DNA from: Tribonema minus
Lineage: Eukaryota; Sar; Xanthophyceae; Tribonematales; Tribonemataceae
DNA: 64,000 nucleotides
NCBI GenBank assembly: GCA_017506865.1
Contig: JAFCMP010000401.1
Coordinates: forward strand, 434,001-498,000
Direction of reading: 5' to 3'
The position numbers were made by a program, and so were the translations under genes. The notes beneath the pieces are model-generated. The model was not told where the DNA came from. It was given only the letters and a program-made list of their open reading frames with translations, and made no database searches. Below, piece by piece: positions 3,098-61,900 of the stretch (position 1 is its first letter; each line of letters begins with the position of its first letter).

Positions 3098-3948
3098 GCC
3101 GCTGTGAAAAGTATTTCTGGCAGCACCAGTTTCCAACATCATAAACTGTTTGAAGTTGAAAGTAGACTTCAAATATACTAATTTTTTCAGTTTCATACGC
3201 TTTAGGGTGAGTAAACATGTAGGGGAGCCATGTAGGGGAGGCTTGAACCTCCCATAGTCACCACTGACCTACCGGTTGAAAACGGTATATAGTATTTGTG
3301 TAATTTACGAAAATCTGCTAAGGGTCGTCCTTGCCCGATTTTGGGTCAGCCGCTGTGAAAAGTATTTCTGGCAGCACCGGTTTCCAATATCACAAACTTC
3401 AAACTGGTTGAGTAAACTCTCAATGTACTAATTTTAAGGCTCATACCCTTTAGGGTGAGTAACCATGTAGGGGAGGTTTGAACCTCCTATGGTCACCACT
3501 CACCTACTGGTTGAAAATGCTATATGGTATTTGCGTAATTTACGAAAATCTGCTGAGGGTCGTACCTGCCCGATTTTGGGTCAGCCGCTATGAACAGTAT
3601 TTCTGGCAGCACCGGTTTCCAATATCACAAACTGTTTGAAGTAGGAAGTCAACTTCAAATATACTAATTTTTAAGGTCCTTACCCTTTAGGGTGAGTAAC
3701 CATGTAGGGGAGGTTTGAACTTCCTATGGTCACCACTCACCTACTGGTTGAAAAATCTATATGGTAATTTACGAAAATCTGCTAAGGGTCGTACTTGCCC
3801 GAGTTTGGGTCAGCCGCTGTGAAAATTATTTCTGACAGCACCGGTTTCCAATATCACAAACTGTTTGAAGTAGGAAGTACACCTCAAATATACTAATTTT
3901 TGAGGTTCTTACCCTTCAGGGTGAGTAACCATGTAGGGGGGGCTTGAT
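3098..3948 (+). repeat. 236-bp satellite family, about 3.5 diverged monomers
   Basis: Repeated blocks share the landmarks GCCGCTGTGAAAAGTATTTC, CTTTAGGGTGAGTAACCATG and CTACTGGTTGAAAA, spaced about 235-240 bases apart. Monomers here differ from each other more than those in the 23.5-27.6 kb array, so this block looks older. The same orientation is used in all three blocks of the window. Confidence 0.9.
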
Positions 3949-12617: not shown

Positions 12618-13230
12618 AATCTGCGTTGAACGACTTATACCCTTTAAGGTGAGTAATCATGTATGGGATGCTTGAACATCCTAAGGGTCGTACTTGCCCA
12701 ATTTTGGGTCAGCCGCTGTGAAAAGTATTTCTGGCAGCACCGGTTTCCAATATCACAAACTGTTTGGAGTAAGAAGTAAACTTCAAATATACTAATTTCT
12801 AAGATTCATACCCTTTAGGGTGAGTAATCATGTAGGGGAGGCTTGAACCTTCCATAGTCACCACTCACCCTGCTAGTTCATAATGGTATTTGCGTAATTT
12901 ACAAAAATCTGGTAAGGGTCGTACTTGCCCGATTTTGGGTTAGCCGCTGTGAAGAGCATATCTGGCAGCACCGGTTTCCAATATCACAAACTTCAAATTG
13001 GTGAAGTAAACTTCAAATATACTAATTTTCAAGGTTCATACCCTTTAGGGATAGTAACCATGTAGGGGAGGATTGAATCTCCCATAGTCACCACTCACCC
13101 TACTGGTGCATAACGGTTTATGGTATTTGCATAATTTACGAAAATCTGCTAAGGGTGGTACTTGCCCGCTTTTGGCTCAGCCGCTGTGTAAAGTATTTCT
13201 GGCAGCACCGGTTTTCAATATGGCATGGAA
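12618..13230 (+). repeat. 236-bp satellite family, about 2.5 monomers
   Basis: It shows the same landmarks and orientation as the other two blocks. The variant TTAGCCGCTGTGAAGAGCA seen here at ~12940 also occurs in the last, degenerate monomer of the large array (27535-27555), linking the two blocks. Confidence 0.9.
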
Positions 13231-23510: not shown

Positions 23511-26500
23511 CTCAAACTGGTTAAGTAAACTTCAAAAATACTAATTTTTAAGGTTCTTACCCTTTACGGTGAGTACCCATGTATGGGAGGCTTGAACCTC
23601 CCATGGTCATCACTCGCCTACTGGTTGAAAACGGTATATGGTATTTGCGTAATTTACGAAAATCTGCTAAGGGTCGTCCTTCCCCGATTTTGGGTCGGCC
23701 GCTGTGAAAAGTATTTCTGGCAGCACCGGTTTCCAATATCCCAAACTTCAAACTGGTTAAGTAAACTTCAAACATACTAATTTTTAAGGTTCTTACCCTT
23801 TAGGGTGAGTAACCATGTAGGGGAGGCTTGAACCTCCCATGGTCACCAATCACCTACTGGTTGAAAACGGTATATGGTATTTACGTAATTTACGAAAATC
23901 TGCTAAGGGTCGTCCTTGCCCGATTTTGGGTCGGCCGCTGTGAAGTGTATTTCTGGCAGCACCGGTTCCAATATCCCAAACTGTTTGAAGTAAGAAGTAA
24001 ACTTCAAAAATACTAATTTTTAAGGTTCTCACCCTTTAGGGTGAGTAACCATGTAGGGGAGGCTTGAACCTCCCATGGTCACCACTCACCTACTGGTTGA
24101 AAACAGTATATGGTATTTGCGTAATTTACGAAAATCTGCTAAGGGTCGTCCTTGCCCGATTTTGAGTCGGCCGCTGTGAAAAGTATTTCTGGCAGCACCG
24201 GTTTCCAATATCCCAAACTGTTTGAAGTAAGAAGTAAACTTCAAAAATACTAATTCTTAAGGTTCTCACCCTTTAGGGTGAGTAACCATGTAGGGGAGGC
24301 TTGAACCTCCCATGGTCACCACTCACCTACTGGTTGAAAACGGTATATGGTATTTGCGTAATTTACGAAAATCTGCTAAGGGTCGTCCTTGCCCAATTTT
24401 GGGTCGGCCGCTGTGAAAAGTATTTCTGGCAGCACCGGTTTCCAATATCCCAAACTTCAAACTGGTTAAGTAAACTTCAAAAATACTAAATTTTAAGGTT
24501 CTTACCCTTTAGGGTGAGTAACCATGTAGGGGAGGCTTGAACCTCCCATGGTCACCACTCGCCTACTGGTTGAAAACGGTATATGGTATTTGCGTAATTT
24601 ACGAAAATCTGCTAAGGGTCGTCCTTGCCCGATTTTGGGTCGGCCGCTGTGAAAAGTATTTCTGGCAGCACCGGTTTCCAATATCCCAAACTTCAAACTG
24701 GTTAAGTAAACTTCAAGCATACTAATTTTTAAGGTTCTTACCCTTTAGGGTGAGTAACCATGTAGGGGAGGCTTGAACCTCCCATGGTCACCACTCGCCT
24801 ACTGGTTGAAAACGGTATATGGTATTTGCGTAATTTACGAAAATCTGCTAAGGGTCGTCCTTGCCCGATTTTGGGTCGGCCGCTGTGAAAAGTATTTCTG
24901 GCAGCACCGGTTTCCAATATCCCAAACTTCAAACTGGTTAAGTAAACTTCAAGCATACTAATTTTTAAGGTTCTTACCCTTTAGGGTGAGTAACCATGTA
25001 GGGGAGGCTTGAACCTCCCATGGTCACCACTCACCTACTGGTTGAAAACGGTATATGGTATTTGCGTAATTTACGAAAATCTGCTAAGGATCATCCTTGC
25101 CCGATTTTGGGTCGGCCGCTGTGCAAAGCATTTCTGGCAGCACCGGTTTCCAATATCCCAAACTTCAAACTGCTTAAGTAAACTTCAAACATACTAATTT
25201 TTAAGGTTCTCACCCTTTAGGGTGAGTAACCATGTAGGGGAGGCTTGAACCTCCCATGGTCACCAATCACCTACTGGTTGAAAACAATATATGGTATTTG
25301 CGTAACTTACGAAAATCTGCTAAGGGTCGTCCTTGCCCGATTTTGGGTCGGCCGCTGTGAAAAGTATTTCTGGCAGCACCGGTTTCCAATATCCCAAACT
25401 GTTTGAAGTAAGAAGTAAACTTCAAAAATACTAATTGTTAAGGTTCTTACCCTTTAGGGTGAGTAACCATGTAGGGGAGGCTTGAACCTCCCATGGTCAC
25501 CACTCGCCTACTGGTTGAAAACGGTATATGGTATTTGCGTAATTTACGAAAATCTGCTAAGGGTCGTCCTTGCCCGATTTTGGGTCGGCCGCTGTGAAAA
25601 GTATTTCTGGCAGCACCGGTTTCCAATATCCCAAACTTCAAACTGGTTAAGTAAACTTCAAACATACTAATTTTTAAGGTTCTTACCCTTTAGGGTGAGT
25701 AACCATGTAGGGGAGGCTTGAACCTCCCATGGTCACCAATCACCTACTGGTTGAAAACGGTATATGGTATTTGCGTAATTTACGAAAATCTGCTAAGGGT
25801 CGTCCTTGCCCGATTTTGGGTCAGCCGCTGTGAAAAGTATTTCTGGCAGCACCGGTTTCCAATATCCCAAACTGTTTGAAGTAAGAACTAAACTTCAAAA
25901 ATACTAATTGTTAAGGTTCTTACCCTTTAGGGTGAGTAACCATGTAGGGGAGGCTTGAACCTCCCATGGTCACCACTCGCCTACTGGTTGAAAACGGTAT
26001 ATGGTATTTGCGTAATTTACGAAAATCTGCTAAGGGTCGTCCTTGCCCGATTTTGGGTCGGCCGCTGTGAAAAGTATTTCTGGCAGCACCGGTTTCCAAT
26101 ATCCCAAACTTCAAACTGGTTAAGTAAACTTCAAACATACTAATTTTTAAGGTTCTTACCCTTTAGGGTGAGTAACCATGTAGGGGAGGCTTGAACCTCC
26201 CATGGTCACCAATCACCTACTGGTTGAAAACGGTATATGGTATTTGCGTAATTTACGAAAATCTGCTAAGGGTCGTCCTTGCCCGATTTTGGGTCGGCCG
26301 CTGTGAAAAGTATTTCTGGCAGCACCGGTTTCCAATATCCCAAACTGTTTGAAGTAAGAAGTAAACTTCAAAAATACTAATTTTTAAGGTTCTCACCCTT
26401 TAGGGTGAGTAACCATGTAGGGGAGGCTTGAAACTCCCATGGTCACCACTCACCTACTGGTTGAAAACGGTATATGGTATTTGCGTAATCTACGAAAATC

Positions 26501-27613
26501 TGCTAAGGGTCGTCCTTGCCCGATTTTGGGTCGGCCGCTGTGAAAAGTATTTCTGGCAGCACCGGTTTCCAATATCCCAAACTTCAAACTGGTTAAGTAA
26601 ACTTCAAAAATACTAAATTTTAAGGTTCTTACCCTTTAGGATGAGTAACCATGTAGGGGAGGCTTGAACCTCCCATGGTCACCACTCACCTACTGGTTGA
26701 AAACGGTATATGGTATTTGCGTAATTTACGAAAATCTGCTAAGGGTCGTCCTTGCCCGATTTTGGGTCGGCCGCTGTGAAAAGTATTTCTGGCAGCACCG
26801 GTTTCCAATATCCCAAACTTCAAACTGCTTAAGTAAACTTCAAAAATACTAAATTTTAAGGTTCTTGCCCTTTAGGGTGAGTAACCATGTAGGGGAGGCT
26901 TGAACCTCCCATGGTCACCACTCACCTACTGGTTGAAAACGGTATATGGTATTTGCGTAATTACGAAAATCTGCTAAGGGTCGTCCTTGCCCGATTTTGG
27001 GTCGGCCGCTGTGAAAAGTATTTCTGGCAGCACCGGTTTCCAATATCCCAAACTTCAAACTGGTTAAGTAAACTTCAAACATACTAATTTTTAAGGTTCT
27101 TACCCTTTAGGGTGAGTAACCATGTAGGGGAGGCTTGAACCTCCCATGGTCACCACTCACCTACTGGTTGAAAACGGTATATGGTATTTGCGTAATTTAC
27201 GAAAATCTGCTAAGGGTCGTCCTTGCCCGATTTTGGGTCGGCCGCTGTGAAAAGTATTTCAGGCAGCACCGGTTTTCAATATCCCAAACTTCAAACTGGT
27301 TAAGTAAACTTAAAAATACTAATTTTTAAGGTTCTTACCCTTTAGGGTGAGTAACCATGTAGGGGAGGCTTGAACCTCCCATGATCACCACTCACCTACT
27401 GGTTGAAAACGGTATATGGTATTTGCGTAATTTACGAAAATCTGCTAAGGGTCGTCCTTGCCCGATTTTGGGTCAGCCGATCTGAAAACTATTGCGTAGA
27501 GCAAGTCTTGTAAGGGTCGTACTTGCCCGATTTTGGGTTAGCCGCTGTGAAGAGCATATCTGGCAGCACCGGGTTCCAATATCACAAACTTCAAATTGGT
27601 GAAGTAAACTTCA
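23511..27613 (+). repeat. main 236-bp satellite array, about 17 monomers
   Basis: Head-to-tail monomers of 236 bases, nearly identical in the centre and diverged at the right edge (27490-27613, where half a monomer is lost and the variant resembles the 12.9-kb block). Within each monomer are two inverted repeats: GGGGAGG-CTTGAA-CCTCCC and ACCCTTTAGGGT. There is also a palindromic GCGTAATTTACG. Two alternating junction variants (CCCAAACTTCAAACTGGTTAAG and CCCAAACTGTTTGAAGTAAG) suggest a dimeric higher-order arrangement in parts of the array. Confidence 0.95.
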
Positions 27614-38434: not shown

Positions 38435-38800
38435 CTCTGTAGGCCTCGCCCCATCCGCCAACGCTCTGCTGGTGCAACAGCTGGTGTAGTAGCTGTCGTA
38501 CGCCACCAGGGGCGCTTTGCTGGGGCACAATGAGTGGCTCTTCGGGGTGCGGCAGCAGCGCAGTTCTCAGCGGATGACGTGGCCTACCTGGCCCACGAGC
38601 TATTTGGGCCAAGCTGGCCCAAATATGGGGTTCGCTTCAGACTCGGGTATGTTAAATCAACTGATACGCTACACACAATTGCCCCTTGCCAGCCTCCTAC
38701 GTGCACCCTCGAAACCCTATGCGCACGAGGCAAATACCCGCAGTCCCGCCATTTCAATCTGGTTAGGCTTCAGACTCGGGTATGTTAAACCACACACAAT
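38435..38800 (+). repeat. dispersed repeat copy B plus ~120-bp tandem duplication
   Basis: 38435-38680 is the inverted partner of 29364-29640, with the same QFSADDVAYLAHE segment and a palindrome at 38601-38625. Then CTTCAGACTCGGGTATGTTAAA and CACACAATTGC occur twice (38633 and 38769), a tandem duplication of ~136 bases that includes the AATACCCGCAGTCCCGCCA end. Confidence 0.65.
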
Positions 38801-38837
38801 TGCTCCTTGCCACCCCCGTACATGCGCCCTCGAGCCC

Positions 38838-40175
38838 CTATGGCTGCCCATGTGTCATAGGGGGCCAGACGAGGTCGTCTCCTGTGTGCTGTGCCTGAGC
38901 AGCCACGCACGGGTACTGCTGCGCCACAGCTGGTGTGTCCGTGTAAGCGGCGCGCATGACAGGCATGTGTGGAAAGTGCTGCTGCACCTGCTGCTGCACA
39001 GGCAACTGAGGCCACTGCTGCTGCACAGGCCTCTGAGGCCACTGCTGCTGCTGAGGCCACTGCTGCATGCCTGTGTACTGGGACTCTGGTGAATGAATCG
39101 CCCGCTGCTGCTGTGCAGACTGCGCCCGCTGCTGCTGTGGAGACTGCGCCCGCTGCTGCTGCGGAGACTGCGCCCGCTGCTGCTGCGGAGACTGCGCCCC
39201 CTGCTGCTGCGGGGCCTGGTGAGGCCACCACATGCCTGTGTACTGAGGCTGCATGATGGGCATGTCTACAGTAGTTGAACGGCGTTTGGTGCGGAACTCA
39301 TCGAGCTGCATATCTGGCTTGCGCTTGAGCGACACCGCAAGTGCCTCGGTCTCAAGCCGTACCTTCCTTGCGTGCGCATCATCTTCCCGCTGCAGTCGCT
39401 TGCATTCTGCCTCGTACCTCAACTGATGAAGCCGTGCGCGTGCATCGTGGTCTAGCTGCTGATAGTCAGCTGAGGGGGGAGGAGACACTGTGAAAGAGGC
39501 TAGGGGCTCTCCGACAGCAGGGGTGGGGGGAGAAGGCACTGTGAAGGGGGGTTCACCTACAGCAGGGGCGGGGGGAGAAGGCACTGTGAAGACGGGCTCT
39601 CCTACAGCATGGGCGGGGGACGCTGTGGCCTCTACTGCGGGCTGAGGGCTGGGGCTTATGACAGCTGCGTCTTTCATCGCACGAAAGTCGTGCGCCATGG
39701 TCACAGCGTCCGCATTGTTATCATATGCCAACCGCATTGCAGCAACAGATGTGCCTAGCTGCCTGGCACCATCCTGCTCAACTGTGTCCGCGGCTTTGTG
39801 TTCGTTTTGTGACCGCAGATACCTCGACAAGTCCATGATCGTGGTGATGGTTTCGTGCCGGAACACGTACACACCAAGACTGGGTACGCCGAGGTGGTAA
39901 GCACCGATCTCAGCAACCGCGTCCGTAAAGGTCTTCTTCCCCACCTGCTTGCCGTTGGCCCCCGAGAGCCCTAAGACCCGATCGTCTGGCTCTGCCTTGT
40001 GCAGTACGGCTCGAAGCCGCCGCAGGATGAACAGCATGACGACGAGCACATCGGCTAGAGCTTTTGGCACAGGGATGGCGATCTGAAGCGGGCCTGCCTC
40101 CCCCCTGCCGCGTATGTGGGACGTCTTCTTGGCCATGGGGCGATCCATATACTGCGACCGACACAGCGTAGGCAA
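38838..40175 (-). CDS. tyrosine recombinase with Gln-rich tail, 445 aa
   Basis: One uninterrupted frame. Residues ~35-180 form an integrase-like C-terminal catalytic half: PKALADVLVVMLFILRRLRA, LSGANGKQVGKKTFTDAVAE, YVFRHETITTIMDLSRYL (H-x-x-R-H box, with Tyr in the His position) and ARQLGTSVAAMRLAYDN with the presumed nucleophilic Tyr. A Pro-rich linker with three copies of AVGEP-x-FTVPSPP follows. Next come a charged helix and a basic patch (SLKRKPDMQLDEFRTKRRST), then a tail of QQQRAQSPQQQ and QWPQLPVQQQ units. The first catalytic Arg box is missing, so an upstream exon or divergent family is likely. Several start codons are possible (40175, 40148, 40136). It is paralogous to 22034-23510; a Crypton-like DNA transposon is the best fit, with no proof of mobility. 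Confidence 0.65.
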   Translation of the reverse strand: MPTLCRSQYMDRPMAKKTSHIRGRGEAGPLQIAIPVPKALADVLVVMLFILRRLRAVLHKAEPDDRVLGLSGANGKQVGKKTFTDAVAEIGAYHLGVPSLGVYVFRHETITTIMDLSRYLRSQNEHKAADTVEQDGARQLGTSVAAMRLAYDNNADAVTMAHDFRAMKDAAVISPSPQPAVEATASPAHAVGEPVFTVPSPPAPAVGEPPFTVPSPPTPAVGEPLASFTVSPPPSADYQQLDHDARARLHQLRYEAECKRLQREDDAHARKVRLETEALAVSLKRKPDMQLDEFRTKRRSTTVDMPIMQPQYTGMWWPHQAPQQQGAQSPQQQRAQSPQQQRAQSPQQQRAQSAQQQRAIHSPESQYTGMQQWPQQQQWPQRPVQQQWPQLPVQQQVQQHFPHMPVMRAAYTDTPAVAQQYPCVAAQAQHTGDDLVWPPMTHGQP

Positions 40176-40970: not shown

Positions 40971-43900
40971 CACGAAGAGCACCCATACACCATCGTCCGT
41001 TAACTTGGCGTACACCCGGGATGCCTTGTTGAGCAGGAAGTCTTGATTACGCCGTGACACGATGGAGGCCAGTTTCATGTTGAAATACATCTCGAGCGAT
41101 GCAGCGTCGTGTGTCGTGTAGCCCTCTTCGATGAGATCGCCAGCAAGCTGCTCCCCCGTCTCCGTGACAAGGTGTTCGACGCCATGCGCCTTAGCTGTCC
41201 TGACCCCACCCAGCAGTGCATAGAACTCCTCCATCATGCTCTCCCACCGGGCCCCCCGGTCTGCAAGGTGCTTGATTAGGGACTCGCGCAACACCTCCCA
41301 TGTCCCCCCCTCCACATTGATCCACATCGTCTTGAACAGCGCGGCCGACTTGAGAGCGTCCGGAGACCGGCCGTCCTGCTGAATCTTGCCGAACGCCTGC
41401 CCCTCCGCTTGCTCCTCCGTCTGTATGCTGCGAATGCGGAGCTGGTAGGCTGTGAAGCTGTTGCGGAGCCGCTCCAGGTACATTTCCGGCCTGTGGTCGC
41501 CGTCGCTGACGTGGAAGGTCACAGTGTCCATCATGTGACAGGCATGGCTGTTCATATTGCTGACTGTATTGGCACTGTAGCCGTTGGTCTCTTTGTCTCC
41601 TGTCCGCCCCACTTGCGTCGCCTTGACTAGGTGCTCCAATTGGGCGAGCACGACGGAGTCCGTGAAAGGGCCTCGTAGGAGGTCTTTCAGCGCGGACGGC
41701 AGGTGCTTGGCGACCTGAAACAACACGCACATTGCATGTGAGAACCGGTGAGCGGAAGTGCCTATGTGAGCAACGGGGCCAAACAGTTTACAAGTCACTT
41801 GGGAAAAGCAGCCAACAGCACACACAACAACACACACAGTCAGCAGCAGCAAGAAGCCGATGATGCTGTGAACCTCGACGACGTCATGTAGTGCATTTCA
41901 TTATAGTCACTTGCAGGTGGCCGTGGATACTGGTTTGCCTACTCTACCTTACAATTGATTTGATTATACGAATACGTCATTTTCTCACTGCAGAACATGC
42001 CTATTATGAACCTGGTCATGTGATGCACCAGATTGCAGGCCCTAGTTAAAATGGCTGAAGCTCATGCAATTGAATCATGATGATGACTTGCCTTGTTAGG
42101 AGGCTGCTTGGCCCTGACGAGTGGTAGAGTAGCTGCCGGGAGCACCATCCGGCTGTTGAGCCGAGGCCGAATCATGTCCCACTCGCTCTGGTAAAGAGGA
42201 ATGAACACCGCGCTGCAGTGAGGGATGCGGTTGATGCTGGTGGCAGTGAAGAGGATCTTGACCGTGTCGGAGGAGGCGTTGTGGTTGGACTGAAGTGCGG
42301 CGTTGGGGTTTGTCATTGCCTCCATGCTGTTGAAGATGTCCCAATCGAACTTGGGCCAGCAGGCCTGCAGGTATGATGTCTGAGGGATGTCCTTGTCGTA
42401 GAGATGGGGCATGCCTGCCCACAGCAGCTCGCCACACTTGAGGCGGCGGAGCGCTGCTTGCGCTATCCCCCCAGTGCGCACCTCGCTGCTGATGATGTCT
42501 GGACCCGCCGCACGGCTGTGGCTCCCGAAGTCTCTGAGGTGTACGCTCTTCACATTTGCATCGGGATTGTGGAGCTTCCTGAAAAGATGCCACAGTTTGG
42601 TGGTTAGTGGTGTGACCAGGTGACAATTTCTCCAGCTGGTCGTATGCGCTTAACCTTGCAGCAGCAACATGTATTTGAGTGATGCCAAGCTAACATGGTC
42701 GTGTGAGCTTAACCTTGCAGCAGCAACACGTATTGGCCTTCAGCAGTGGGAGTGATGCTAAGCTAACAGGCAGCCAAAGTTTGATGGCGAGTGGTGTGAC
42801 AAGGTGTCAAGCTGGTCGTGTGCGCGTAAGCTTGCAGCAGCAACACGTATTGGCCTTTAGCAGTGTGAGTGATGCATTACATATGGTGCTTGATTGTCAA
42901 TGAAGATTCAAGATACTGAATGATGCAACGCTCACAAATTCAGAGAAGCTTAGATGAGCCAGCTAAGTATTGCTGATGCACTTTTACCACGAGAAGTGCA
43001 TGCCGTCATGACTTACATGTGGAAGACCTGCATGCCCTCGTGCCAGAGCGCCACGGCGTTGTACAGCAGATGCTGCCACGCCTTAGTAAGCCTCCCCCCC
43101 TTGTCCGCCTTGTCCAGTGAATTACGCAGGACGTAAGTCAACCCCACCAGCTTCACCTCCTCCCCGTCATCTCGTGCCTCCATGCCGTAGAAGCTGTGAT
43201 CGTCCTCCACCGTGGAGGCACGCTTGGCAAGCGGATCCTGGCGAGGACCGCGCCTTGTTACCTTCTTGCCTTTCCCCTCTGCTCCCCCACTGATAGTACC
43301 TCTGCCGCAGCTGCCGCTGCTGGAGCCACCGCTGGGGGCGCCGCTGCTGCTCGCTGTCGACGCTGGTGACGGAGGCGAGTCGCCGCTGGCGCTGCTGCTT
43401 GCTGTAGATGCTGGTGATGAAGGCGAGTCACCGCTGGCGCTGCTGCTGCTGCTGCTGCTGCTCGCTGTCGACGCTGTTGACGGAGGCGAGTCCCTGCCAT
43501 CGCTGCTGCTGCTGCTGCTAGCTGTTGACGCTGATGACGGAGGCGAGTCGGCGGGGGTTGGAGCGGTGGTGGCGCTGGTGGCAGCGTTGGTGGCGGAGCT
43601 GCTGCTGCTGCTGGCGGTGGAGCTGCTGCTGCTGCTGGCGGCGACGGAGGAGATCTGGCTGTAGAGTAGCCATTGCTTAGGCTGTGATGATGCATCCGTA
43701 GGTGGATCCTTCAGGAACTGCTGGAGGTCCAGCGTGATGGTGATCTTGCGACGATCTTCAACATCGGACAGCAGCTGGAACGTGCCGTGGTTGTCCTTCT
43801 TGTACAGCGGACTGAACTCCACAGCGCACTGTTTCTTGGATGCATTTCTAGGCCGCCCTCCCCCGATTTGCTCCACATCGCCGGTGATGTTGACCTCCCC

Positions 43901-51800: not shown

Positions 51801-54800
51801 GCGTCAGCAATGCCGCCGCCGCCGCCACCGCCGCTGTCGCTGCCGCTGCCGCTGCCACTGCCGCCGCTACGGTTGAAAAGTTGCTGCCGGTGCCACAGCG
51901 CAAGGAACCATCTTGCTTGGGGACCCAAGTATTCAATAAATGCAGCAGCGTGTAGGCTGCGCGCACCGAGGCGGGCACAGGGAGCGAGAGCAACGACACG
52001 CACGCTGCTTGAGGCATGTATGTATGTGCTCAGCACGACGCAGCAGCGCACAAGGGCCGACGCATGCGGGAGTCACAGCACATTGGCACATGGTGCTTTG
52101 AGTTGGTAGTGGCGTGGCGCGCTGCGCGTAGGGGGCCATGAGTAGCTTCTAAACGGTAACGGTTAGTGTTAGAGTCAGGTCAGGGCTAGGGTTGGATACA
52201 AGGGTCGCCCCCCTCCTGAGCGCTGCCACGCGTTGAAGCAAGGGCCTGACTGTAGCGCCGACCGCCTCTCTTTGCTGAGCGCTGCTGCAGAGATTCGTGG
52301 GGCGCAAGCTGCTCGTGCTGGACCTGGACGAGACGCTGGTGCACTCCTCCTTCAAGCCCGTGCCCAAGTCGGACTACATACTGGACATCATGGTGGACGA
52401 CACGCCGTACAAGGTATGTTTGCAGGCTCACCAGCAGCATGTTTGTGATATCGAGCAGAGTACAAGGCACGCCGCTGCCGCCGCACCGCGCTTGAGCCAC
52501 GCCAACGCGGCACCAGCTTGGGATGCGCGGCTCCCGCAGGGATCGCGCGCGTGCTGCCGAAACGCATGGCCGCGTCGGCTGCGTCAGCGGTGCACGTGCT
52601 CTCTGCTGGTTGCGCTCACAGGCTCACCAGCAGCATGGTTGGTGTCATCAGGTAGAGTACAAGGTACGCCGCCGCTGCCGCCGCACTGCAGTGAGCCGTC
52701 GTTCGCGCCGCGCAAGCCGCTGCGACGCCGGCTCGGGATGCGCCATGCAAAGTGTGGATCAGAGTGTTGCCGAAACGCGTGACAACGTCAGCTGCTTGAG
52801 CGGCGCGCGCGCTCTGCGCTGGTCGCGCGTACTGCTCCGCCTGTCTGCGCCCACGCGTCGTCACACCGTGGTACGCCGGCAAGCGGCTTCGTTGATCAGG
52901 CATTCATGAACTTCAACAAGATGAACTTCACGAAGTGCGAGGGAAATCCGCACGGTGATGATCAGGCCCTGTTGCAAGCGCTCCCATTCGTTCATCGTCA
53001 TTCATCATCAAGGCCTGCAACCGGGGATGCTGCTTCTCCAAAGTGGTCGCATTCGCGGTTATCACTCTATGCCGCGTCCTCACCCGCAGCACTGCAACTG
53101 CTGTGCCAGGTGTTCGTGCTCAAGCGCCCGGGCGTGGACGAGTTCCTGGAGCGCGTGTCCAAGGACTATGAGGTATGCAAGAGTGAACCGTGCGTGTACT
53201 GCGAGTGGACTGCTCTGTCCCATGCCACACGCACAGCAGAGCACCAAGCGGTAAAGCACTGTCAGCGGTGAAGTCAGCGGAGTCTGTGCGTGTGGGACAT
53301 GGAATTGCCGGTTGGTGCCGGGTGTAACAACGGGCACTTGGGGTTAGGGTTCAGGGTTAGGGTTACAGTTAGGTTTGGCCTGTCGTGCGGCATTGAGCGC
53401 ACGCAGACGATCATGTTCATGGCACCGCTGCCACGGCGCGCCGGCCTCCTCAAGCTCGACGTGCTGCATTCATTCATTCATTCAAAAACACATTCATTGA
53501 TTTCACTCATGGGCGCTGGCGTCGCAGGTGGTCAATTTCCTGTCATGTTGCTGCCGCAAAACGTCGTCCCGCTGCTGGACCGGCACGCGTTTATTCGTTG
53601 CTTGATTCATCACCTCACATCTCTCAACAGGGCTGGTGATCACCTCTATCGCATCACTGCACAGGTGTCCAGCCACATCCATCCATTCCCATTCATCCAC
53701 CCGCTCATTAATCCGTGAATTTACCCGACGCGCGCGCACCGCAGGTAATCATCTTCACGGCCTCGCTGCCACAGTACGCCAACCCCCTGCTCGACAGGCT
53801 GGACCCCAAGGGGCTCATCACCGCGCGCCTCTTCCGCGAGCACTGCACGTTCCATGAGGGGTACTTTGTCAAGGTGAACCTACATACCCCCAAGCTTTTC
53901 AATTTGGATTCGTTTTTCATTTCAATATGGATCATATCATACTAATTCACATGCAAAACCTTCATTCCGCGAGCACTGCACGTTCCACGAGGGGTACTTT
54001 GTCAAGGTGCGCCGCCTGCTGATCACTGCGGCACTTGCCCATTGCTGTGCGCAACGGTGCAGAGTAGAAGTAGTGAGCACAAACTAAGGCCTGTTCTGCG
54101 AGCACTGCACCTTCCACGAGGGATACTTTGTCAAGGTGAACCTACCTTCCAAGCATTTCAATATGGATCACATCATACTATTCATATGCAAAACCTTCAT
54201 TCCGCGAGCACTGCACGTTCCACGAGGGGTACTTTGTCAAGGTGCGTCGCCTGCTGATCACTGCTGCACCTGCCATTACTGTGCACAACGGTGCAGAGTA
54301 GTCAACACATAATAGGGCTGTTCCACGAGCACTGCACGTTCCACGAGGGGCACTTTGTCAAGGTGAACCTACATACCCCCCAAGCATTATGATGTGGATC
54401 ATGGTCAAAATCTTCACTCCGCGAGCACTGCACGTTCCCCGAGGGGTACGTCGTCTAGGTGACCCTACATACCCCCCAAACGCTGGTGAGCTGCAGAGCC
54501 TCAGTGCTCAGTGTTTGGTGCTGCAATCTAACTTTGGTGCTAGCCCTAGTTGTTCTAAGCCTAGTCCTGTGTTACGCCGCAACGGTGAGCATGGAATGCG
54601 TGCCCCGCGTCTGAGAGCGTGAAGATAGACTAGGGGTAGTTGGGGCATGAGTTGCGATATTTAGGGTTTGATGGAGCATGAGCTGCAATACTCTCAGGCT
54701 CGCCAGAGCCTCGTCACATCACCTTTGCAGCGTGCGCGCCCCCACCGCTTCAGCCTCGCACACGTAGGGTTAGGGTTAGGGTTGAGGTTAGGATAAGATT

Positions 54801-56073
54801 AGGGCTAAATCAAGCGCATCGTGACGTGGCAGACGATTGGTCGCTGCTCGAGAGACGGCCTGCGCCAATCTGTGGCACTTCTGGGTGAGGGACGCAAGCT
54901 GCGCCTCAGACGGCTCCCAATCAACACGCCATTGTGTACTGGGCTACTCATGCCGCTACACAGCCCTTTGTGATTGGGCATGTGAGCCATATTTCAAATG
55001 GTGACGTGCGCCTTCTGAGCAAGGTGACGCCTCAGCAAAACGGCCTTGCAGCTCCAGTTCACCCCTGAGCGTCGATGCTCACCAAATCTTGAAGTTGAAG
55101 AATTCACAACTCCAGTTCACCCTTGCGCTCCGCACCGCCGCATCTTAAAGTTGAAGATGTAAGCCTCACCGCGAGGGTATGTACGTTATCGCGCTCCCCC
55201 CGCTGCCGTAGGACCTCACGCTGCTGCGCAACAACACCAACCTGTCCGACACCATCATCGTGGACAACTCGCCCATGGCGTACATGTTCCAGCCCGACAA
55301 CGCCATAGACTGCACGAGCTGGCTGGAGGTGAGAGAGCCGAGCGCTGCCATTGCCGTGCTGAGCGCTGCCGCATCCCGCAAACCATACGTACATACGCAG
55401 TCCACATGCATGGTAGCAGTATTCAATCGCCTCTACTGCAGCTGTGCCACGCACCTGATTGCTGCGTACCAGCGCGCGGTGTGATTTGGCCACGCTGCCA
55501 ATTCCCTTGGGGCTCGCAAAAAGCGCCCATTCTATGCCTGGTCCCCCCATGCACAGTGTCAATGACCTCATGGTCAACCGCAGCAGCAATCCTCACCAAA
55601 TCTGTTCTTGCAGGCTCATAGACCCTGTTGGGGGGTCAGCAAGAAGAAAGCCGCAGTACATTCTTCTTGGCGGTTGCAGCGCGAAAACGCGCTGAGTCTG
55701 CCACTCGCCATCGCGCATACGCCACCGCCGCCGCCGCCGCCGCCGCCGCAGCTGCGCAGAGCGCTGTCACTACGCTGTGTACGCGCCAGACGCAGCAGCG
55801 ACGTGAGCCGTGCGCGTGAGCACGAGGTACCTCAAACAGAAGTTCAAACGTGAAGTCTAACTGTGGCGTCAGCGCTTTGCTGTGCTGCGCGCACTCACCT
55901 CTCAACGCACGCTCCTTGCCGCTGCGCCGCACTGCATGTCGCAGGACCCCATGGACGAGGAGCTATACGTCATCGCGGCCTTCCTGGAGAGGATCAGGGG
56001 GGTCCCCGAGGTGCGCGACTACGTCGAGTTCTGGCGGGAAGGCTCGGAGGTCATGGACCCCGCCTACGCCTAG
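48898..56073 (+). CDS. SCP/NIF-type HAD phosphatase, nine exons, 419 aa
   Basis: Exons: 48898-48977, 49371-49510, 49787-50028, 51258-51494, 52291-52413, 53110-53172, 53745-53873, 55212-55328, 55945-56073. All junctions are GT-AG and phases agree throughout, giving exactly 420 codons. The N-terminal ~230 residues are Ser/Ala-rich and disordered. The catalytic FCP1/SCP domain follows: LLVLDLDETLVHSS (nucleophile and acid/base of the D-x-D-x-T motif), FVLKRPGVDEFLERV, IIFTASLPQYANPLLDRLDP, ARLFREHCTFHEGYFVK, LSDTIIVDNSPMAYMFQPDN and a C-terminal acidic helix. Family members dephosphorylate the RNA polymerase II C-terminal domain or other phosphoserine proteins in a Mg-dependent reaction. All signature residues are present. 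Introns 5 and 7 contain copies of the preceding exon end. Confidence 0.92.
50781..50912 (-). repeat. interstitial telomere-like repeats (CCCTAA)n
   Basis: CCCTAACCCTAACCCTAACCC and a second run lie at 50781-50820, with a short one at 50900-50912, in intron 3 of the phosphatase gene. Similar islands (TTAGGG type) occur at 53341-53366, 54764-54806, 60410-60420, 61435-61452, 61590-61600 and 63728-63748. Confidence 0.85.
51738..51754 (+). repeat. poly-G run (17 bases) in intron 4
   Basis: An uninterrupted G tract. Others of the kind are 56084-56109 (26 C, 10 bases after the phosphatase stop codon), 56490-56509 (20 G), 58218-58230 (G) and 59434-59443 (G). They may form quadruplexes and are prone to length error. 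Confidence 0.9.
52424..52815 (+). repeat. ~196-bp tandem duplication in intron 5, with copies of the exon-5 end
   Basis: AGGCTCACCAGCAGCATG occurs at 52424 and 52620. Each unit contains GAGTACAAGGCACGCCG or GAGTACAAGGTACGCCG, echoing the exon end CCGTACAAG/GTATGT at 52405-52420. Confidence 0.7.
53965..54460 (+). repeat. five tandem copies of the exon-7 3' edge with donor site, in intron 7
   Basis: The ~42 bases encoding FREHCTFHEGYFVK plus GTGAAC or GTGCGC recur at 53965-54006, 54094-54135, 54200-54241, 54321-54362 and ~54416-54458. Two spacer types alternate: one starts GTGAACCTAC, as after the real exon; the other starts GTGCG(C/T)CGCCTGCTGATC. The last copy is the most diverged. Confidence 0.9.
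54461..55211. other. remainder of intron 7
   Basis: No second gene. It holds a TTAGGG-like island at 54764-54806 and two imperfect copies of a 'CTCCAGTTCACCC' segment at about 55052 and 55110. Confidence 0.5.
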
Positions 56074-58934: not shown

Positions 58935-61900
58935 TCAGGCCTTCTTCGGCGCACCCCACGCAAACCCCCCTCCCCCCTGCCCGTACAGCCGCACCGCCTC
59001 GAGCTCGTCCTGCTCCTTGAGCTTCTTCTTGGTGAGCTCGGCGGCCTCGCGGCGCTCGCGCGCGTCGTGCGCCAGCAGGTGCTCAAAGTTGGCCTCCTCC
59101 GCGGGGGTCATGGCGTAGGGGGAGTGCGCGGCGCCGGGGAACGCGCCCGCCTCCACCTCGCGCCGGTATGCGTGCAGCCCCTTCATTACCTGCGGGGAAT
59201 TGGGGGGGGCGGGGGGGGGGGTAAGCTGGCGTGCAACATCAATGCAACAGGGTAAATGGGCTGCATCAGCGGCGGTCAAGGCGCAACGGCAGCGCCGGGG
59301 AACGCGCCCGCCTCGACCTCGCGCCGGTACGCATGCAGGCCCTTCATTACCTGAGGGGGATTGGGGGGTGGGGTCAGGCTTAGGGGGAAGGTCAGGAATA
59401 GCTCTGTCAAGTGCATAGTTCATGACCTGCCCCGGGGGGGGGGGGTTTCGCTAACGGTGAGAAGCAGCAAGCGCCTGCCAACCCTCGCGCTGAGACACGA
59501 GCATGGCGGTCCACCACAGGAGCAATGCGATGTCCATCTGTTTACGCACGCACCCATCGGGGCCAAACGTGCCTGCCCTCCCTCCGTGCTCATGCACGAA
59601 CATTGCGAGCCACGGACTCATGGCGGGGGCCGGGAACACTCCCCCAAAACTTCAAAAACAGACGCTTCACGGCAGCCTCAGTCTCGCGCGCTCAGCGAGG
59701 CTCAGTCAGTCGTGATAGGAGCCCACAACAACGCAAACCTTGTTGAACCGCGTCCTTGCGTGACAGCGCGTCCCGCGGTTGAGGACGTATCAGCGGCAGC
59801 GTTTGACTTGGTAGAGCTGTCGGAGTGATCCTCGAATTTGCGAAGCGGCGCGCAGCAGGTCTGCAGCAGCGCTCTCACATCGCCCTGCGCATGTACATGT
59901 GTATAAATGTGTATGTGTGCACGCAATCGGCAGCGCTGACTGCACGCACGTCATCTGACGTACACATGTATCCAACATGCACCAGAGCGGCAACAACTGC
60001 TGTTGGTGGAAGGCATTCAATTTGACGGCTAACCACACCTTGTCACCTGGAGCACTACGACCTTCTGGTGCATTTCCATGTACCATCTACGTCCGCGGCA
60101 GCGCTCACCTCGGTCTGCACGTCGGCGAACACCTTGCAGAACTTGGGCGCCATGCGCTGGTGGTGTGGGTGCGAGAGGATGCCCAGCATGTCGTGGTACA
60201 CGAGGACCTGCCGCGGCGCGCAATCAGACGCCGGAGCAGGGTTGAAGTTCAGATATGGATCTTAGGGTTGAACTAAGGGTAGAAGAAGGTATACAAGGCG
60301 CAGGCGGCACGGTGGCCAGAGTCAGGGTCGCAGGCGCATGCAAGGCTTTGAATTAGTGCGAGAGACAGCGCCAAACGGCGAGAACGGACTGTAGCGCAAA
60401 ACATCGGTTACGGTTAGGGTTGGATGCGAGGGTGCAAATGATGCGCGTCGCTGCGCGTGCGCCACCCACAACTGCCAAGCAAGCCAAGCAAGCGGCGCGA
60501 GGTCCGAAGGCGCACAACACGGGGCGCTGCGTACGACAACGCTCAGATTGAAAGTGCTCAGACCTTCAGGCACCGGCAAGCTGCACCGCTCTGCAGTACA
60601 CACTATGTATACTTTGGTGGCGCGTCACCCCTTGCAGTTTTAAGGTACGGCGCACCTGCCCGTCCGTGTGCGGCCCCGCGCCGATGCCAATGACGGGTAT
60701 CTCCAGCGCGTCTGCGATGGCCCTGCCCACGACGGCGGGGACGCACTCGAGGACCACCGCAAAGGCGCCCGCCTCCTGCGCAGCAGCGGCGGCGGCGAGG
60801 GCGCGCGTGAGGCAGGTCGGCGGCGCGCGAGGCACGCGTATGCGTGGAGATGAGATGTCAGAGAGGACAGAGGGGCGGTGCAAGGCGGCGGCGGGCGCGC
60901 ACTCGCGGACGACCGCAAAGGCGCCCGCCTCCTGCGCGGGCGGGGTATGCGTGTATGAAGGGCGTCAGGTCGTGCGCTCCGTGCGTCGGGTGCGCGCGCG
61001 CAAAACACAGCGGGGGGCGAGACTGCGCACAGCAGTGGACTGGTGCACTGCGTGCGTGGGCGCGCAATAGCCCAGGCAACTGTTTTCGCGCGCGCACTCA
61101 CTCCAGGATGGCCGCATACGCGCTAGCCTCCTGCGCGGCGGCGGCGGCGGCGGAGGCAAGGACGCGCATGAGGAAGGCCGGCGGCGCGCGGCGCAGCGCG
61201 CGAGGTGTGTGTATGCGTGGAGATGAGATGTCAGAGAGAGGACAGGCGGGCGGTACAAGGCGGCGGCGGCGGCACGCACTCGATCCGACCACGAACGGCG
61301 CCCGCGGACCGTATGATGCAATCAGCGCATGCGCTGGATGCGTCGGTGCATGTGCGCAAACCATGTGGGGCTTGACATCACACAACGTTGCTGAGTTGTA
61401 TATTGCGCAGCCGCGATGATGGGCGGAGGGTCATGGGTTAGGGTTAGGTTTAGCATGTGGGCTAGGATGACCGCATGACAGCACAGGCGCTCGCCTCCTG
61501 CAGGGCAGCTGCGGCGGCGGCGGCAGGGGCGCGCGCGAAGGCTGCCGTCCCACGCGGTTGGCATATGAGTGAGGGTGCGTAATCTGTGAGGTTTATAGTT
61601 AGGGTTAGCAACACATGCATGGGGATGGCTCATCGAACGACGGGCGATCAGCGCGCAGCACACGCTGGGACGACCGCCAAGGCATAGGCGCGTGCCGCTG
61701 GGCGCGGCGGAGGCGGTGCCGCACGTCGAAACGCTGTGCTTCTGAGGTGATCTCAACATCGGCGCTGTGTTGCTCTACCTAACCCTAGCCTGCTCCAAAA
61801 CCCTCACCGTAAGCGTGACCCTGAACCCAACCAGCTGCAGATCACGAAGCAAGCCACACAGCCGACTGCACCGTCACGTGCAACCTCTGAGCCCTCAGGA

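Follow-up and report, generated by a model that had tools for sequence, protein, structure and literature searches.

Tandem copies of exon edges and their splice sites within introns of Tribonema minus

An intron of a CTD-type small phosphatase gene of Tribonema minus holds five tandem copies of the end of the preceding exon together with its donor, and similar copies of exon ends and exon starts recur in other genes of the same genome. The gene lies in the window, by which we mean the whole stretch of 64,000 nucleotides that was analyzed (contig JAFCMP010000401.1, positions 434,001 to 498,000 of the forward strand). We consider it likely that the array arose by recurrent local tandem duplication across splice junctions, with the outermost sites remaining in use and with introns becoming longer while none was newly created. 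Under this explanation, segments crossing an exon-intron border, in most cases one to two hundred bases in length, would be duplicated locally, again and again. Duplication of an exon end with its donor would place the new copy inside the downstream intron, and duplication of an acceptor with its exon start would place the new copy inside the upstream intron; if the spliceosome joins the outermost pair of sites, the protein would be unchanged and the sole effect would be a longer intron. The copies would be nearly neutral, and their inner sites may be ignored through recognition across the exon (exon definition).

The array in the phosphatase intron

The host gene encodes a NIF/HAD domain related to SCP1. 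A protein of 145 residues, joined from four in-frame exons, matched PF03031 (NIF) with an E value of 6.8e-42 and human SCP1 (1t9z) with an E value of 2.5e-35; in the same Pfam search, five of the six queries had no match. A further exon upstream, ending at 52413, encodes DLDETLV, which we take to be the catalytic motif. The preliminary description had placed five tandem copies of the last 42 exon bases plus donor at 53965-54460, and self-comparison bore this out, with six in-register copies (the exon and five more) at 53829, 53962, 54091, 54197, 54318, and 54414, separated by 133, 129, 106, 121, and 96 bases. The four donors that it named are those of copies 1 to 4, and beyond them lies a fifth, in the last copy (Table 1). 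The 45-base exon-end matches gave self-BLAST E values from 1.4e-11 to 1.6e-16, and a chance origin of the array is therefore ruled out. The two spacer types, described as alternating, nearly do so in the order A (after the exon), B, A, B, A, with the last copy (A') breaking the order, and the reported growth of decay with distance holds loosely, the number of exonic bases kept (41, 38, 41, 39, and 36 of 42) being not monotonic.

Array units of type A are 75-92% identical to one another and those of type B 91%, and copies 1 and 3 share a 95-base stretch that is 96% identical at 235-base spacing. This long match, together with the identity of the B units, suggests from the pattern of the letters that an A unit and a B unit were at some later time duplicated together, giving the 235-base spacing of like copies. 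The exon end of copy 5 reads TAG/GT, an in-frame stop, compared to AAG/GT in the real exon. The acceptor of the array-bearing intron (55210-55211) lies outside the array. The outermost pair of sites is presumably the one that is used, since that pair gives the conserved protein.

Table 1. Features of the phosphatase gene, its intronic array, and the exon-start copies of a second gene (window coordinates; a slash marks the exon-intron border).
Feature	Position	Strand	Evidence and details
Preceding coding exon	53110..53172	+	VFVLKRPGVDEFLERVSKDYE; in-frame joined translation
Weak upstream echo of acceptor and exon start	53397..53466	+	Versus 53734-53801, 73% over 71 columns, E 1.4e-4
Source coding exon, VIIFTASLPQ...FHEGYFVK	53745..53873	+	In-frame translation, PF03031 and 1t9z matches; last 42 bases (53832-53873) are the copy source
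Authentic donor AAG/GTGAAC and A-type spacer	53874..53964	+	Sequence, splice-site score (6.5)
Copy 1	53965..54093	+	Exon end 53965-54006, 41/42 kept; donor 54007 (score 9.9); B-type spacer
Copy 2	54094..54199	+	Exon end 54094-54135, 38/42 kept; donor 54136 (score 6.5); A-type spacer
Copy 3	54200..54320	+	Exon end 54200-54241, 41/42 kept; donor 54242 (score 11.5); B-type spacer
Copy 4	54321..54416	+	Exon end 54321-54362, 39/42 kept; donor 54363 (score 6.5); shortened A-type spacer
Copy 5, most decayed	54417..54480	+	Exon end 36/42 kept; donor 54459 (score 5.5); A-like spacer start
Next coding exon, DLTLLRNN...CTSWLE	55212..55328	+	In-frame translation; intron ends in AG (55210-55211)
Last coding exon with stop	55945..56073	+	In-frame joined translation
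Ketopantoate hydroxymethyltransferase, exon-start copy	59128-59207 with 59289-59368	-	One copy, by eye
Ketopantoate hydroxymethyltransferase, exon-start copies	60730-60781 with 60886-60937, 61090-61305, 61475-61534	-	About three copies, by eye

Junction copies in paralogues and in genes not chosen for the pattern

The genome (158 Mb, 554 contigs) was searched for matches to the spacers and the exon end, with very common words skipped by the search. The A-spacer query gave two matches, both within the array-bearing intron, and the query made of exon end plus B spacer gave nine, confined to the phosphatase gene and its C224 paralogue. A dispersed element was thereby rejected for both queries, strongly if not absolutely, and the confinement of the A-spacer matches to their own intron argues for local duplication instead. 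At the same junction the C224 paralogue carries three units (the exon and two copies) at an exact 121-bp spacing, the copies sharing 93% and 83% identity with the first unit. A B-type spacer opens the exon's own intron in that paralogue, and this comparison of sequences makes it probable that the window gene acquired its A spacer later. The preceding exon of the C224 paralogue has two copies of its own end and donor in its own intron, and the C16 paralogue has, in the upstream intron, four copies of the start of the exon that corresponds to the source exon of the window array, with the AG kept in two and lost in two. The intron position of the window array is common to the C224 and C16 paralogues.

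A sample of genes that had not been picked for the pattern was drawn from 56 PF00118 matches, which we grouped into ten chaperonin genes; before counting, four of the matches were dropped for being echo copies in their own right, and a further one lay outside the fetched C51 stretch. Best NCBIfam matches typed nine of these genes, two as GroEL-type chaperonins and the others as CCT eta, beta, theta, gamma, alpha, delta, and epsilon, on the basis of one exon per gene and with scores below the curated whole-protein cut-offs; the tenth gene (C544) was excluded from typing for a stop in the stretch. With 51 exons modeled by a splice-site matrix and echoes detected by self-BLAST at E 1e-4, a junction-crossing echo was found at 25 of 82 modeled junctions, in six of the ten genes, and at that threshold the other four genes had no junction echo. 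The preliminary description had called the pattern unusual, which is not so within this genome. All donor echoes (13 of 41) were located downstream and all acceptor echoes (12 of 41) upstream, and there were no inverted matches touching exons in self-BLAST of the ten loci. In a cross-gene control, in which probes were compared with the non-exon sequence of other genes, 16 of 918 gave matches, a count that may contain unmodeled paralogous exons. We regard an assembly artefact, in which collapsed or mis-joined haplotypes or repeats would have produced the copies, as extremely improbable: the window units differ from one another, the pattern recurs on several contigs, and the chaperonin echoes lie on the side that is compatible with splicing.

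For 32 chaperonin introns both flanking exons had been modeled and were adjacent; 13 of these introns contained an echo at E 1e-4, and the count rose to 15 at E 1e-3. The span between a junction and its farthest copy accounted for 29% of the bases of these introns and for 47% within the echo-bearing ones; median intron lengths were 811 for echo-bearing introns, 515 for echo-free introns, and 618 overall. The intron after exon 4661-4798 of L066 (C5), 635 bases long, is spanned for nearly its whole length by five copies, four of the donor and one of the acceptor. A wider set, which comprised the ten chaperonin and three phosphatase genes at E 1e-3, held 34 arrays with 76 copies, at one to eight copies per array; the chaperonins contributed 29 of the arrays and 62 of the copies. 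Copy spacing in this set had a median of 134.5 bp, quartiles of 115 and 174, and extremes of 68 and 710; the spacings fell into the three classes modulo 3 as 25, 24, and 27 of 76, without frame preference.

The echoes were clustered by gene, the 13 echo-bearing introns at E 1e-4 all lying in four genes out of nine (permutation p 0.0002). At this threshold an echo was present in 13 of 16 complete introns of L065, L066, L069, and L072 and in none of 15 in L063, L064, L067, and L068, with L063 gaining two at E 1e-3. No obvious link of this clustering with GC content was seen. Such strong heterogeneity among genes is one of two observations that would fit a junction-targeted mutation, in which junctions would be duplicated preferentially through breaks or template switching tied to transcription or splicing. 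The other is that the 32 complete introns held 17 junction arrays (nine donor and eight acceptor) versus seven introns with intron-only pairs, a junction share of 71%; however, random placement already predicts 22-50% (length-weighted) or 29-69% (intron mean), depending on unit size, and exon-anchored pairs stay detectable longer, such that proper modeling might remove the excess. With intron sequence alone, five of 17 arrays touch a junction compared to 0.58 expected at random, a comparison in which targeting and units that continue into the exon look alike. Over the ten whole loci, intron-only pairs (those not touching echo copies) numbered 70 and exon-involving pairs 62, which indicates that duplication is not confined to junctions; 52 of the 70 sit in three genes with two or three modeled exons, where unmodeled exons were counted as intron. 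Because exon-anchored pairs are detectable longer and intron-only pairs are at least as many, targeting is not claimed, and we judge it rather unlikely. We see a similarly small chance that the genome has a gene-selective duplication process that prefers junctions, is perhaps coupled to transcription or splicing, serves as a main source of intron sequence, and is survivable through site choice across the exon; if this were true, even stronger intronic copies would be ignored since splice sites are chosen across the exon.

Copies were also sought in loci of two further kinds. Direct copies of the coding match outside that match were present in two of 30 kinase loci, mostly long open matches, and in seven of 22 NIF loci; there were no inverted copies in these 30 kinase and 22 NIF loci, and a neighbor control, available for the kinase loci only, gave 0 of 30. 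The seven NIF loci correspond to five genes, including the window gene and its two paralogues, with L044, L058, and L059 being a single place on C445. Copy-bearing loci mostly kept the side rule, with start-edge copies at the start side and end-edge copies at the end side; two of the seven NIF loci (L053 and L059) include copies that break it, and L059 itself contains stops. In the kinase gene L025 a coding match is flanked by copies, two of which lie on its start side and three on its end side. One of its start-side copies consists of 55 bases at 100%, and some copies in this gene are probably recent. On the minus strand of the window, a ketopantoate hydroxymethyltransferase gene (PF02548, E 1.7e-31) shows by eye, in upstream introns, copies of two exon starts (Table 1).

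Divergence of the copies and strength of their splice sites

Searches with 40 intronic bases alone found 32 copies, and the exonic part was recognizable in 23 of them. Among these intron-found copies, copy-to-copy identity was 0.787 of columns in the exon-derived part and 0.761 in the intron-derived part (21 pairs), a near-equal divergence that matches the prediction of neutral decay. Searches with 40 exonic bases found 64 copies with an exonic part near 90% identical, and the intronic flank exceeded the 99% level of random sequence in 36 of them; copy-to-copy identity was here 0.822 in the exonic and 0.712 in the intronic part (34 pairs). These identities were obtained with a strict measure. 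The weak intronic flanks of the exon-found copies are not fully accounted for by plain duplication followed by neutral decay; bias of the search, deletions at a later time, or conversion from the exon could explain them. A reading of strong selection on the copies, taken from exonic identities of about 90% versus intronic ones of 70-75% and from copy-to-copy values of 0.764 versus 0.583, was set aside because those searches leaned on the exon.

The coding content of the copies was assessed in 68, that is, the 76 minus eight (two by choice and six by a length filter). Differences between exon and copy at the three codon positions were 0.079, 0.057, and 0.139, and those between copies were 0.134, 0.106, and 0.162, with a mild third-position excess; 11 of the 68 copies had frameshifting gaps and five an in-frame stop. 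These counts mostly fit successive copying from an exon that itself changes slowly, with the copies decaying afterward. Were the copies instead real mini-exons, used alternatively or in a mutually exclusive manner, their exonic parts near 90% identical to the exon and the predominance of third-position differences from it would be as expected, but the third-position excess is expected just as well from synonymous change in the real exon combined with copying at different times. Each copy, moreover, holds part of the exon only, the spacing of the units is without frame preference, and in the window the fifth copy terminates in a stop; with the frameshifts and stops also against it, we consider the mini-exon reading very unlikely.

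Among the 30 donor copies, 28 had kept their splice dinucleotides, as had 18 of the 19 acceptor copies (46 of 49 in total), perhaps more than the divergence suggests, though the alignment criterion favors intact sites. When the sites of all 76 copies were scored with a shift of up to four bases allowed, the site was lost in six, scored above the 10th percentile of real sites in 47, and scored at least as high as its own real site in 29. Splicing at the copy site would preserve the frame and avoid a stop in four of the 76. In the window, two of the five copy donors (9.9 and 11.5) outscore the real one (6.5). As inner donors are sometimes stronger than the real donor, strength alone cannot explain site choice, and the 29 copy sites that equal or exceed their real site suggest recognition across the exon. 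Such recognition would reject the copies because a donor copy that holds an exon end only has no acceptor of the exon upstream of it and an acceptor copy has no donor of the exon downstream.

The same strong sites could be taken to favor a regulatory decoy array, in which extra donors adjust expression by binding U1 or stalling splicing, or else lead to unproductive transcripts that are degraded. A stop would be introduced by each of the five window copies if its donor were used, as an unproductive-splicing switch would need, and the C224 paralogue has an array at the same junction. Stops and frameshifts upon site use are, however, expected of ordinary intron sequence too, the copies themselves contain frameshifts and stops (including the terminal stop of the fifth window copy) with few of them frame-safe, and the paralogues carry arrays at different junctions. 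The presence of the pattern in chaperonins, the phosphatase, a kinase, and a pantothenate gene, and at donor and acceptor junctions alike, is a better match for a mutational process than for regulation of one gene, and we hold the decoy reading to be quite unlikely. The preliminary description had left a choice between such a decoy array and a fossil of intron expansion by tandem duplication spanning the junction; the latter has good support and applies to acceptors and further genes as well, whereas the intact sites are the sole positive sign of the former. The duplication explanation does not need a decoy role, and the copies look like mostly decaying sequence.

Intron growth and the choice among near-identical splice sites are often approached through engineered minigenes or through individual cases from the past. 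Should the sampled rate hold, many natural experiments would be available in this genome, in which real and copied sites are locally near-identical and differ mainly in their position relative to the exon. Combined with RNA-seq, the arrays would directly test exon definition versus intron definition and would also test tandem duplication as a major route of intron lengthening.

Relation to known intron sources and further repeats in the window

Tandem duplication is a well-known source of introns according to excerpts of PMC3443670 and PMC4974935, including the work of Gao and Lynch (2009) and Hellsten (2011) as described there. The arrays resemble the AGGT duplication type of intron gain outlined in those excerpts, in that a short segment with a splice-site motif is duplicated, an exon copy comes to lie inside an intron, and the protein is unchanged. 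In that type a new intron results, whereas here the border of an existing intron was duplicated and the intron lengthened, as is indicated by the presence of the intron at the same position in three paralogues. In the potato RdRp gene, as excerpted from PMC4974935, the duplicated segment crosses the border between intron and downstream exon, as do the acceptor echoes here, but that case is a single event with a new intron and an activated cryptic donor, compared to up to eight copies per junction at many junctions here. An intron built of 24-bp exon units similarly spans several tandem copies of exon sequence; as far as the excerpt describes them, those units are exon-internal and bear AGGT, whereas the present ones are mostly one to two hundred bases long and straddle an existing junction. 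Introners, as portrayed in part of PMC9860276, are alike in that intron sequence is made in bulk by one process in one genome, but they insert copies of themselves into many genes, whereas the A spacer here matched its own intron only. An introner or introner-like element was accordingly rejected, the spacer queries having matched either their own intron or the gene and its C224 paralogue. Among the matches listed in a search of open-licence literature, as judged by titles and abstract openings, none dealt with genome-wide tandem copies of exon edges in introns. Relative to the known intron-gain duplications, the distinguishing features are the repetition, the involvement of both kinds of junction, the recurrence across genes of one genome, and the lengthening rather than gain of introns. 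Many short Volvox introns are probably recognized across the intron, according to an excerpt of PMC4378016; the present arrays could test intron-wise against exon-wise recognition in introns of median 618.

In the genome, the chlorophyll-binding domain PF00504 gave 92 matches; PF12499 gave none, in a search whose controls stayed silent as well, so that this result is no sign of absence. Other repeats were noted in the window. A direct repeat at 38634-38721 and 38767-38842 starts with GACTCGG/GTATGT, which resembles an exon end and donor, and short direct repeats at 42589-42875 have the acceptor-like core CTTGCAG/CAGCAAC. A satellite array of period 236 with about 17 copies occupies 23512-27493, and arrays of period 229-230 with similar units are located at 3228-3947 and 12681-13221.
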